Shown: positions 42,652 to 46,903 of the stretch, in pieces
How the letters are laid out: each line of letters begins with the position of its first letter
How positions within the stretch are numbered: position 1 is the stretch's first letter
Source: Acidobacteriota bacterium
GTDB taxonomy: Bacteria; Zixibacteria; MSB-5A5; GN15; FEB-12
NCBI GenBank assembly: GCA_035529075.1
Contig: DATKXK010000008.1
Span: 1 to 47,159 of the forward strand
Direction: 5' to 3'
Length of the DNA: 47,159 bases
The notes under the pieces: generated by a model
Seen by the model: only the letters and a program-made list of their open reading frames with translations
What the model was told of the DNA's origin: nothing
The model's database searches: none
Program-made: the position numbers and the translations under genes

Positions 42652-43308
42652 ATGGCGTCGCTATCCGTTGCAAGAGAGGCAATTGCGGAAGTGGGGCGCC
42701 GGCTGAGCGACCGGGGTTTGCTGGCAGGGACCCAGGGCAATATCTCCGTCCGCCTGGATTCCGAGCGGATTGTCGTAACGCCCGGCGGCGTATCCAAGGG
42801 CCGCCTCTCACCGCGAGACATGATCACCGTCAACCTGACGACCGGAGCCAAGCTTCAGGGACCGGGCCGGGCCTCATCGGAGTTGCCGATGCATCTGTTT
42901 GTGTACAGAAACCGACCTGACATTCTCGCCTGCGTTCACGCTCACCCGCCGTATGCCACCGCCTTCGCGGTCGCAGGTGTTCAATTGGCCGAGGATTTCC
43001 TGCCCGAGGTCGTTCTGTCTGTCGGCAGGGTTCCCCTGACCGACTATGCTCCCCCCGGCACCCAGGCCGTCCCGCAAGCCCTCGCACCGTTCATAGCGGA
43101 CTGTAACGCCTTCCTGCTTCGCAACCACGGCCTGCTGACAATCGGCCGGACTCTCGAAGAAGCGTACAACCGACATGAGACGGTCGAGCACTGCGCTCGC
43201 ATCGCGCATCTGTCGTCGCAAATAGGAGACCCTCACGGCATTCCGGCCGACGACTACGAGCGGCTCAGCAAAATCCGCCGCGAGGGAGAAAAGACGCAAG
43301 ATAACTGA
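42652..43308 (+). CDS. Class II aldolase/adducin family protein (FucA/AraD-like)
   Basis: A 218-residue zinc-dependent sugar-phosphate aldolase or epimerase. The zinc ligands are His96 and His98 (CVHAHPP) and His159 (LLRNHGLLTIG), and the acid/base residue is Glu77 (ASSELPMH). Phosphate-binding segments TQGNISVR and TPGGVSKG are intact. I chose the ATG at 42652; an upstream in-frame extension to 42541 has no ribosome-binding site and unlike composition. The substrate (fuculose-, ribulose- or methylthioribulose-phosphate type) cannot be fixed. It heads a run of same-strand genes reaching panB, starting 13 bases before the aminotransferase homologue. Confidence 0.9.
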   Translation: MASLSVAREAIAEVGRRLSDRGLLAGTQGNISVRLDSERIVVTPGGVSKGRLSPRDMITVNLTTGAKLQGPGRASSELPMHLFVYRNRPDILACVHAHPPYATAFAVAGVQLAEDFLPEVVLSVGRVPLTDYAPPGTQAVPQALAPFIADCNAFLLRNHGLLTIGRTLEEAYNRHETVEHCARIAHLSSQIGDPHGIPADDYERLSKIRREGEKTQDN

Positions 43309-43321
43309 TACCGAGTCATCG

Positions 43322-44506
43322 ATGGCAATCAAAAGGATTTTGATCGACAAGGCCAATCGGCTCTACCAGATGCCGCCGCACATTCTTGCCTTCGTGCAAT
43401 CCGAGAAGAAGCGCAAACTGATCAAGCGGCCTGAACTGATTGACCTGGCGTCCTTCACCTGGCCGGTCCCTTATGAATCCGACTCGATCCCTGATCCTGA
43501 CGATCTCCGACCGGCTTCCCGGGAACGCCTGAATAATCTCAAAGAGGAACTGGCCGCCTGGATGACTTCGTGCCACCGGGTACGCCTCTCCCCTGAGCCC
43601 GAAATCTTCATCGGGGGATCGGTCACCTGGCTGACGCACTGCCTGGCGCAGGCCTACATCAATTACGGCGATATCGCCTTCGTGCCCGACCCGGCCGTAC
43701 CGCTGTATCGTCAGGCCGTCACGGCCTCGGGCGGCGAGCCGATTGGCTATACCATGGCCGAGGCCGGCGGCTGGCTTCCCTCCTTTGACCGGGTTCAGAC
43801 GCACCTGGGCCGGGTCGCCCGCCTCCTATTTCTCAATTCACCACACAACCCGACGGGCGCCGTCCTTGGCGAGAAAGAGCTGGCGGATCTGGTCTGGATT
43901 GCGGCGCGAGAGAATATCCCTGTCATCAATGACGCCGCTTACCAGGGCATCTCCGATCGCGTTCCCACGTCACTCCTGGCCGTCGACGGCGGCAAGAAGG
44001 TGGGAGTCGAGGTGTACTCCTTTGCCTATCGCTTCGGCCTGCCCCCCATTCCGTTCGGGTTCGCCGCCGGAAACCGGGAGATCATTCGAGGTCTGAAGGC
44101 CGCAGCCGGCCTGGTGCCGCCGCACATTCCGGATTATTACGTCACCTGGGCGCTCAGGGCGATTCGCCAGTTCCCCTCGGGCAGCCTGAAAACCTGCCGC
44201 AGTGAACTTCACCGGGCACTGGCTGATTCCGCCAAGCTCCTTGACCAGCTATCCCTCGAAGGATGTGGTTTTGACACTGTCCCGTTCATTTGGACGCGAG
44301 TTGAGCGCCGGAGCAGCGCCGTCACGGCGGCACGAATCCTTTACCGACGCTATCGCATCCTCGCCGCACCCGGCACCGGCTTTGGCGAGAACGGTCAGGG
44401 ATACCTTCGCTTCTCCCTGACTGCCGGCCGCAAGGCATACCTTGACGCCGCTGCCCGCGTAAGGCGAAGAACAAAACTGCTGCATCCCCGGGAGCCTGAG
44501 CTATGA
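43322..44506 (+). CDS. Fold-type I aminotransferase homologue with Tyr in place of the PLP lysine
   Basis: A 394-residue member of aminotransferase class I/II. Cofactor-pocket motifs are present: FLNSPHNPTG (Asn172/Asn176) and VINDAAYQG (Asp204, Tyr207), and the C-terminal substrate-carboxylate Arg is in GYLRFSL. The segment that should read SFSKxxxxxGWRIGF reads SFAYRFGLPPIPFGF, aligned without gaps, so the Schiff-base lysine is Tyr236 (codon 44027-44029) and the GWR arginine is Pro. The reading frame is intact and the gene overlaps folB by four bases (ATGA), which argues against decay. It may bind PLP or a substrate without transaminating, or catalyse different chemistry. Confidence 0.9.
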   Translation: MAIKRILIDKANRLYQMPPHILAFVQSEKKRKLIKRPELIDLASFTWPVPYESDSIPDPDDLRPASRERLNNLKEELAAWMTSCHRVRLSPEPEIFIGGSVTWLTHCLAQAYINYGDIAFVPDPAVPLYRQAVTASGGEPIGYTMAEAGGWLPSFDRVQTHLGRVARLLFLNSPHNPTGAVLGEKELADLVWIAARENIPVINDAAYQGISDRVPTSLLAVDGGKKVGVEVYSFAYRFGLPPIPFGFAAGNREIIRGLKAAAGLVPPHIPDYYVTWALRAIRQFPSGSLKTCRSELHRALADSAKLLDQLSLEGCGFDTVPFIWTRVERRSSAVTAARILYRRYRILAAPGTGFGENGQGYLRFSLTAGRKAYLDAAARVRRRTKLLHPREPEL

Positions 44507-44904
44507 AGGATCTGCTGCGCCTGTGCGGGCTTTCCTTTTACGGCTATCACGGCGTCAGCACAGCCGAAAAGGAGACGGGACGCGTCTTCGAGGTCGACTG
44601 CGAGCTGGAAATGGACCTGGCCGAAGCCGGGCATTCCGACCGGCTGGCCGACACCGTCGATTACGGTCGCGTCTATGGCCTGATACGAGACACTGTGGAA
44701 GGAAAAGCATACTCCCTCATGGAGACATTGGCCGGAGAACTGGCGGCGAAGTTGCTTGACAGCTTCCCCGTATACCGAGTAACTTTGAAGGTCCGCAAGT
44801 TGCACCCGCCGCTTGCCGGACAGGTCAGGTACATTGAAGTGGAGGTTACGCGACACCAGGGAGATACGGCCAAGCTGACCGGGTGGGATGCCTCGGAGCC
44901 GTAA
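44503..44904 (+). CDS. folB: Dihydroneopterin aldolase (FolB)
   Basis: A 133-residue folate-pathway enzyme that cleaves 7,8-dihydroneopterin to 6-hydroxymethyl-7,8-dihydropterin and glycolaldehyde. Family motifs: N-terminal LCGLSFYGYHGVSTAEKETGR (substrate-loop Tyr and Glu), DTVDYGRVYGLI and YSLMETLAGELAAKLL with the conserved Glu, then VTLKVRKLHPPL with the catalytic Lys. Length is slightly above the usual 120. Its ATG overlaps the stop of the preceding gene, indicating translational coupling, and folK follows after nine bases. Confidence 0.96.
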   Translation: MKDLLRLCGLSFYGYHGVSTAEKETGRVFEVDCELEMDLAEAGHSDRLADTVDYGRVYGLIRDTVEGKAYSLMETLAGELAAKLLDSFPVYRVTLKVRKLHPPLAGQVRYIEVEVTRHQGDTAKLTGWDASEP

Positions 44905-44913
44905 GGAATCACC

Positions 44914-45423
44914 ATGGCAGAAACCGTTTACATTCTTCTGGGATCCAACGTCGGCGATCGCGAAAAATGTCTCCGGACAGCGCTTAAGCGCCTGGAGTCG
45001 CTTGAAGGTATGGAGGTCGTCGCCGTCTCGGCCGTGTACGTCTCTCCCGCCGAGGATATGGAGGAGGGCACCCCGGCCTTTCTCAATCAGGTGATCAAAG
45101 GCGAATACAGTTACTCGCCGTACGAACTGCTGCGCGCCGTGGAGAAGATCGAGCACGACCTCGGGCGAACCGAAAAGGGAGAAAACCTTCCGCGGACCAT
45201 CGACCTGGACATCCTGCTGTTCGGTGAGCAGTTGATCGACTCGGAATCATTGTGTATACCTTACCTGCAACTGCTCAGCCGCGCGTTTGCCATGGTTCCG
45301 CTGCTGGAGATCGACCCCCACCTGCGGCATCCGGCCAGCAAGCGGCCGATCGCCGAATTCCTCACCGACGAGGATCGCCGCAAAGTCATGCTGTACAAGG
45401 ACCATGTCGCCCGAAACGTTTGA
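44914..45423 (+). CDS. folK: 2-amino-4-hydroxy-6-hydroxymethyldihydropteridine pyrophosphokinase (FolK)
   Basis: A 169-residue HPPK, which pyrophosphorylates the FolB product with ATP. Family motifs in order: YILLGSNVGDREKCLRTAL, VSAVYVSPAE, FLNQVIKGEYSYSPYELLRAVEKIEHDLGR (given here in two adjoining parts of the same helix), ENLPRTIDLDILLFG with the Mg-binding D-x-D, and PYLQLLSRAFAMVPLLEI. An AAGGA site precedes the ATG. Its 3' end overlaps the kinase gene by 20 bases. No folP is visible in the window. Confidence 0.96.
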   Translation: MAETVYILLGSNVGDREKCLRTALKRLESLEGMEVVAVSAVYVSPAEDMEEGTPAFLNQVIKGEYSYSPYELLRAVEKIEHDLGRTEKGENLPRTIDLDILLFGEQLIDSESLCIPYLQLLSRAFAMVPLLEIDPHLRHPASKRPIAEFLTDEDRRKVMLYKDHVARNV

Positions 45424-46066
45424 GCCCAACTACATCGCGGTCGAAGGCGTCATCGGGGCGGGCAAGACGTCGTTCGCCCGCATGCTGGCCGAACGGGTCA
45501 ACGCCGAACTGATTAACGAGGAAGTATTCGAGAACCCGTTCCTTGTCGACTTCTACAGGAACCGAAAGCGATACGCGCTCCCCTGCCAGTTGTACTTTCT
45601 TATCTCCCGCTTTCACCAGCAGCAGCAGTTGACGGTGCGGGACCTGTTCGCCCAGCGCGTTGTCTCCGACTACCTTTTTGCCAAGGACGCCATCTTCGCG
45701 TCCGTAAACCTGTCCGAACGGGAACTGATTCTCTACAACAAGATTGCCCCGGCTCTGCTTCAGGACATTCCGCGCCCCGACCTGGTCATCTATCTCCAGG
45801 CCGGCACGCCCGTCCTGCTCGAACGCGTGCGCAAACGCAACGCACCGTTCGAGAGAACGATCGATCTCGAGTACCTTGAGATGCTCAATAACGCGTACGA
45901 TTATTTCTTTTTCCACTATGCCGAAACGCCCCTGCTGGTCGTCAAGACGGATGAGATCGACTTCGTAAACACGCCGGAACATTTTGACGACCTCATCGAC
46001 CAGATACGCAAACCGATCTCCGGAAAGAAGTACTACGTTCCGGCCGGGGATTTCGCACCACGGTGA
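45404..46066 (+). CDS. Deoxynucleoside kinase (dNK family)
   Basis: A 220-residue P-loop kinase of the deoxyadenosine/deoxyguanosine/thymidine kinase type that salvages deoxynucleosides. The P-loop is EGVIGAGKTSF (Lys21). The substrate-site segment is NEEVFENPFLVDFYRNRKRYALPCQ, and the LID/Arg segment is VRKRNAPFERTIDLEYL. I chose the ATG at 45404, inside the end of folK; the protein then starts MSPETFEPNYIAVEG, matching family N-termini. In several bacterial phyla this gene is found beside folK and panB, as here. Confidence 0.93.
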   Translation: MSPETFEPNYIAVEGVIGAGKTSFARMLAERVNAELINEEVFENPFLVDFYRNRKRYALPCQLYFLISRFHQQQQLTVRDLFAQRVVSDYLFAKDAIFASVNLSERELILYNKIAPALLQDIPRPDLVIYLQAGTPVLLERVRKRNAPFERTIDLEYLEMLNNAYDYFFFHYAETPLLVVKTDEIDFVNTPEHFDDLIDQIRKPISGKKYYVPAGDFAPR

Positions 46067-46072
46067 CCGCCA

Positions 46073-46903
46073 ATGTCAGTTGTCAAAAAGACGAAGAAGA
46101 TAACCGTTCACACGTTCGCGGACAAAAAGGCCCGGGGCAAGAAGATCGCCGTCCTGACGGCTTATGATTGCATCACGGCCCGCCTGCTTGACCAGGCCGG
46201 TATCGACTCGATCCTGGTCGGCGATTCGGCCGGCAACGTCATTCACGGCTTTCGCTCCACCCTTCCCGTCACCATGGACATCATGGTCGCCCACACCGCC
46301 GCCGTGGCCCGCGGCACTGAAACGGCCCTTGTCGTTGCCGATATGCCCTTCCTATCGTATCAACCGTCGGAGGAAACGGCCATCCGCAACGCCGGCCGTT
46401 TTCTCAAGGAGGGAGGGGCGGAGGCGGTCAAGATGGAGGGCGGTCTGGAGATGGTGCCGACGGTTCGACGGCTCGTGGAATGCGGCATTCCCGTCATGGG
46501 ACACATCGGCATGACGCCGCAGTCGATTCACCGCCTGGGCGGACCCAGGGTACAGGGACGCGGCGAGGAATCACGCGCCTACCTGCTTGAGTCGGCGCTG
46601 GCCCTGGAAGAGGCCGGCTGCTTTTCGATGGTGCTCGAACTGATCGAAAAAACCACGGCCGCCCGGATCACAGCCGAATTGAAGACCGCCGCCACCATCG
46701 GTATCGGCGCCGGACCGGACTGCGACGGTCAGGTGCTGGTGATAAACGACATCCTCGGCCTCCGCGAACCCGGATTCAAACCGAAGTTCCTGCGCGAGTA
46801 TGCGGACCTGTCCACCGCCATCACCGACGCCGTGGAACGCTATATCAGCGACGTCGAAAGCGGCGGCTACCCGGGTGACGATGAATCGTACAGTGACAAC
46901 TAG
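46073..46903 (+). CDS. panB: 3-methyl-2-oxobutanoate hydroxymethyltransferase (PanB)
   Basis: A 276-residue enzyme that makes ketopantoate from alpha-ketoisovalerate and 5,10-methylene-tetrahydrofolate, the first step of pantothenate synthesis. Motifs: AVLTAYDCITARLLDQAGID, LVGDSAGNVIHGF (Mg-binding Asp), VVADMPFLSYQ (second metal Asp), AVKMEGGLEM, VMGHIGMTPQS and the catalytic Glu segment MVLELIEK. It needs a folate cofactor, which links it to folB and folK upstream. It starts six bases after the kinase stop codon. Confidence 0.98.
   Translation: MSVVKKTKKITVHTFADKKARGKKIAVLTAYDCITARLLDQAGIDSILVGDSAGNVIHGFRSTLPVTMDIMVAHTAAVARGTETALVVADMPFLSYQPSEETAIRNAGRFLKEGGAEAVKMEGGLEMVPTVRRLVECGIPVMGHIGMTPQSIHRLGGPRVQGRGEESRAYLLESALALEEAGCFSMVLELIEKTTAARITAELKTAATIGIGAGPDCDGQVLVINDILGLREPGFKPKFLREYADLSTAITDAVERYISDVESGGYPGDDESYSDN

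Follow-up and report, generated by a model that had tools for sequence, protein, structure and literature searches.

A descendant of LL-diaminopimelate aminotransferase without the PLP lysine, retained in a folate–pantothenate gene cluster

What might a protein with an aminotransferase fold do without the lysine that binds pyridoxal phosphate (PLP)? This question is raised by a gene in the window, i.e. the whole stretch of 47,159 nucleotides analysed here. To our knowledge, few natural fold-type I proteins lack the PLP lysine; the known examples cited below comprise single enzymes and one eukaryotic subunit. In the following, AT stands for the aminotransferase homologue at 43322-44506 and its orthologues, and the window protein is the AT of this stretch. 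The gene and its neighbours are as follows.

42661..43308, plus strand: class II aldolase/adducin family protein (ALD); metal triad H93, H95, H156 plus E74 conserved
43322..44506, plus strand: AT, Lys-less, DapL-derived aminotransferase homologue, 394 aa; open frame, Pfam PF00155, AlphaFold2
44027..44029, plus strand: Tyr236 (TAT), position of the PLP lysine; alignment with BacF and DapL
44051..44053, plus strand: Pro244 (CCG), position of the GWR phosphate arginine; alignment
44408..44410, plus strand: Arg363 (CGC), substrate-carboxylate arginine; invariant across the Lys-less set
44503..44904, plus strand: folB, dihydroneopterin aldolase; TIGR00525, 108.5 bits, cut-off 72
44914..45423, plus strand: folK, HPPK; TIGR01498, 103.8 bits, cut-off 54
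45404..46066, plus strand: deoxynucleoside kinase (dNK); PF01712, E 4e-42; ATG start picked by eye
46073..46903, plus strand: panB, ketopantoate hydroxymethyltransferase; TIGR00222, 313.9 bits, cut-off 207

The AT frame runs uninterrupted from the ATG at 43322 to the TGA ending at 44506, and its stop region overlaps the folB start by an ATGA (44503-44506), as the first-pass annotation had read them. The window protein is matched by Pfam Aminotran_1_2 (PF00155; E 3.5e-30, 105.8 bits versus a gathering cut-off of 19.7). In a structure search with its AlphaFold2 model (pLDDT 93.4, pTM 0.91) class I aminotransferases matched over nearly the full length, with BacF (6l1n, Z 42.9) as the best hit; by this model, the aminotransferase fold is retained. 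Alignment to solved aminotransferases places Tyr236 at the site of the Schiff-base lysine and Pro244 at that of the GWR arginine, while Asn172, Asn176, Asp204, Tyr207 and the C-terminal Arg363 are present. These residue assignments agree with the first-pass annotation, whose inventory of losses was, however, incomplete: Val126 replaces the ring-stacking aromatic residue (Tyr or Phe in 80 of 80 lysine-bearing relatives), and both the partner-subunit tyrosine (Y70* of AspAT) and the DapL lysine at position 102 are gone.

A sequencing error at 44024-44029, which would have undermined the reading of the lysine codon, is ruled out by the Lys-less orthologues. Near orthologues with 43-66% identity were found in nearly all genomes of the window's family, every one with a readable site is Lys-less, and at least two base changes would be needed to turn TAT into AAA or AAG. 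In the 107 operon copies of the phylum the site holds Tyr (56), Phe (20), Thr (10), Leu (6), His (4), a gap (3) or single other residues, the range including V, A, D, P, I and S; lysine occurs in one copy only. Outside this set, the same alignment shows Lys in each of the 55 lysine-bearing relatives. Of the two features whose conservation was in question, the operon context is kept and the tyrosine is not; the residue differs by family. With the site varying so freely, Tyr236 is unlikely to be a new catalytic residue. The one lysine copy (G110, L217:5352 region, ELHSLSKGTGLSGIDCGFI) is without the GWR arginine and nests beside a Thr copy in the tree, with branch lengths of about 0.04-0.05. It is therefore unlikely to be a surviving ancestor, and its lysine looks like a late chance change. 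Two relatives beyond the window's set that occupy the same operon place (L270, L273) have a wholly rewritten lysine region (EIGA..PPGDLLSPQ). A contig scan with two general motifs yielded, among the matches listed, mostly ordinary DapL and is not a census of Lys-less copies in other phyla.

The origin of AT can be read from gene order and phylogeny. In other phyla a lysine-bearing LL-diaminopimelate aminotransferase (DapL) is encoded directly upstream of folK, often together with folB, dNK or panB, and at four such loci (L140, L160, L163, L168) dapF is located just upstream of the operon dapL. Two lysine-bearing operon copies were scored with the DapL equivalog profile TIGR03540 (curated cut-off 593): L260 reached 612 bits, and L256 stayed just under the equivalog cut-off with 586 while exceeding the subfamily cut-off of 507 with 590. 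From 612 for L260 the TIGR03540 score falls to 434 in a lineage with methionine at the lysine site (Met lineage; L298) and to 174 (174.5 bits, below the cut-off) in the window protein. A single branch, with a support of 100, has every Lys-less copy on the same side; the Met lineage (L165, L254) is closest to the lysine group, and a second tree agrees. The tree and the shared operon place demonstrate, at the level of sequence, that AT descends from DapL.

Because a lysine-bearing DapL precedes folB, folK and panB elsewhere, the folate neighbourhood was inherited and predates the loss of the lysine. Recruitment into a folate operon is thereby ruled out as the origin of AT. Homologues with the same neighbours and an intact lysine, which the first-pass annotation had thought incompatible with its reading, do exist in other phyla; the loss in the present lineage stands, and they reveal the former identity of the gene. 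The idea that the protein regulates C1 or pantothenate metabolism fares less well, as it was derived from the operon, and a neighbourhood older than the lysine loss says little in favour of a C1 role. More generally, caution is advisable in naming a function from a folate operon when the neighbourhood came from DapL. The order aldolase-AT-folB-folK-dNK-panB is maintained across families, orders and the class, with an AT/folB overlap in 58 of 106 copies (starts estimated). A Met-lineage cluster (L298:7303-15995) extends to panC-like and glmU-like genes and is preceded by genes resembling coaX and groES-groEL, all read by eye.

The sequence of losses is evident from the surviving lineages. With methionine at the lysine site, the Met lineage (L165, L254) has the GWR arginine, stacking tyrosine, partner tyrosine, Asn, Asp, Tyr and substrate arginine intact; later families are without the phosphate arginine, partner tyrosine and stacking aromatic, and in family f7 Asp204 is changed to Arg. 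D204, N176 and Y207 persist in most lineages, and R363 is invariant in the Lys-less set. The lysine was lost once, at the base of the phylum plus a sister lineage, with methionine in its place in those copies that are most DapL-like. What remained of the PLP site then degenerated separately in the individual lineages, whereas the fold, N176, D204 and chiefly R363 stayed. The surviving lineages form an ordered record of cofactor loss, in which the lysine went first and the phosphate cup and stacking residue followed. Four newly conserved and widely kept positions (R130, P321, R330, R/K343) can already be seen in the Met lineage, which dates their origin to about when the lysine was lost; Y143 and H175 are further new conserved polar positions in the Lys-less set.

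Degenerate catalytic sites might simply indicate a decaying pseudogene held by drift or operon structure, and some copies are indeed damaged. The AT genes of G042 (L043:3086-4267, one TAA) and G079 contain an in-frame stop, several lineages have deleted the gene, and the G128 gene (L318:5161-6329), which shares about 94% identity with its relative L227, is short of about 34 residues and out of frame, so that either the copy is broken or the assembly is in error. Yet nearly all copies are open, the new positions are well conserved, and pairwise dN/dS, computed for 14 close pairs, lies between 0.03 and 0.11, on a par with folK and the aldolase and in most cases above folB or panB. These ratios rule out a pseudogene as the general explanation, and we regard decay as most improbable. 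They establish strong purifying selection on what is, judged by its codons, a functional protein, in line with the earlier suggestion of a re-purposed enzyme, which a conserved Lys-less lineage on an intact fold supports.

Functional does not mean indispensable. Clean deletions of AT with the folate genes remaining were found in three lineages: G122 and G095 have aldolase-dNK-folB-folK-panB, G071 has aldolase-folB-folK up to the end of its contig, and G094 has folB-folK-panB with neither AT nor aldolase. AT is therefore not an obligatory pathway step in those lineages. This bears on the proposal that the aminotransferase scaffold acquired a new PLP-independent catalysis, e.g. with a pterin, pantoate or folate intermediate as the substrate. 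The conserved polar residues R130, Y143, H175, R330 and R343 and the tight operon with its ATGA overlap would fit such an enzyme; the survival of folB, folK and panB after AT deletion, as far as the contigs reach, and an operon older than the lysine loss argue against it, and we consider it improbable.

The genomic record of the neighbouring aldolase is relevant to a further proposal, namely that AT is an inactive partner subunit, as SPT1/LCB1 is for SPT2, or a scaffold for the aldolase. SPT1 is a fold-type I protein that likewise kept its fold and lost catalysis (PMC6148460). The aldolase adjoins AT in most copies, its metal ligands are all conserved in 95 copies, and it is probably an active enzyme; it scores under every NCBIfam cut-off. 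However, each gene has been lost independently of the other: AT has no aldolase neighbour in f7, f12 and f17, where the latter is lost or moved, or in the Met lineage, and the aldolase occurs without AT in G122, G095 and G071, which rules out a strict pairing. Moreover, the paralogue search of the window genome gave one match at E<=1e-45, the next best having 23% identity over part of the sequence, and no lysine-bearing close paralogue comparable to SPT2 was found there. A partner or scaffold role thus appears rather unlikely.

If the former DapL no longer transaminates, how do these bacteria make diaminopimelate for the cell wall? The window genome has a DapF match over the cut-off, and a lysine-bearing aminotransferase (SFSKVIAPGLRVGW), LysN-like by eye, is encoded directly upstream of dapF:

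L287:8531-10694 (G000:C10:411031-413194): LysN-type aminotransferase (L287:8531-9745) plus dapF; the aminotransferase gene immediately precedes dapF and the trp operon

No NCBIfam profile matched this aminotransferase at 1e-75. The LysN-type gene was present in 14 of 14 genomes searched, and of the 11 dapF loci inspected across the phylum, eight have it as the neighbour of dapF. Neither dapD nor ddh was found in the 17 genomes searched for each, dapH gave no match over its cut-off in the genomes searched, and DapF had no match in G131 or G135, both Met-lineage genomes. Families f6, f11, f16 and f17 possess an additional, separate lysine-bearing DapL-like gene elsewhere in the genome. The location beside dapF and the failure to find dapD and ddh make the LysN-type gene a candidate for a non-orthologous replacement of DapL, and gene neighbourhood suggests that it probably took over LL-DAP formation. 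Such a handover of DAP amination would have released the ancestral DapL from its role.

The freed protein would neither transaminate nor hold PLP as an internal aldimine. We propose, with moderate confidence, that AT is a dapL descendant in an inherited dapL-folB-folK-dNK-panB cluster and now serves as a PLP-independent, carboxylate-binding pseudo-aminotransferase with an accessory, regulatory or sensor role, in which a small carboxylate may be bound via the old substrate arginine R363 at the domain interface. The conservation of R363 may instead reflect a structural need, and the lysine copy of G110 counts against our proposal, though it is without the GWR arginine. The retained D204, N176 and Y207 also count against it, as they would suit non-covalent PLP or PMP. 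Together with R363 they persist in most lineages, and with the GWR arginine and both tyrosines retained in the Met lineage (L165, L254) they lend some weight to a Lys-independent PLP/PMP enzyme that performs dehydration, racemisation or half-transamination with PMP or an external aldimine. There is a precedent in ColD/E1, a fold-type I enzyme with His in place of the Schiff-base lysine (PMC8987622). Still, no single acid-base residue has taken the place of the lysine in AT, f7 has exchanged Asp204 for Arg, and in the window protein the phosphate arginine, partner tyrosine, stacking aromatic and lysine are all gone. The PLP binding that had been suggested for the window protein is hence unlikely, and an enzyme of this kind is quite improbable.

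Returning to the proposed accessory or sensor protein, its preservation is what gives the case its wider meaning: almost the whole phylum has kept a Lys-less DapL descendant intact for very long, as would be expected if the protein had taken on a new job, probably not transamination. The literature search yielded no paper on a Lys-less DapL-derived lineage or on a phylum-wide example with graded intermediates. The full scenario, a phylum-wide Lys-less DapL lineage with a new PLP-independent catalytic or ligand-sensing role and the LysN-type enzyme as replacement of DapL, is put forward tentatively. Automatic annotation would probably label AT an aminotransferase.

Compared with DapL (TIGR03540, NF006756), the window protein shares the fold, whole-length similarity, the N-terminal A-x-R-L start, NPTG and the PG..FG..GEG.(L/I/V)R motif, and AT has the same place before folB, folK and panB; by contrast, the PLP lysine, GWR arginine, GSKEG lysine, GDPD motif and stacking tyrosine are missing, and 174 bits contrast with the cut-off of 593. 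Among solved structures BacF (PDB 6l1l, 6l1n, 6l1o) comes closest in fold, with Z 42.9 at 24% identity, but has the lysine (SFSK) where the window protein has Tyr236. Lys-less members of fold-type I are already known (ColD/E1, PMC8987622; SPT1, PMC6148460). The sugar 3-dehydratases ColD/E1/SpnQ similarly combine an aminotransferase fold with the absence of the Schiff-base lysine; they use a catalytic His and PMP, whereas the AT residue varies (Tyr in the window protein, His in only four of 107 copies), the cofactor site is dismantled and there is no sugar-operon context. SPT1/LCB1 resembles AT as a conserved fold-type I protein without the lysine and other catalytic residues, but it pairs with SPT2, a lysine-bearing close paralogue for which AT has no counterpart in the window genome.
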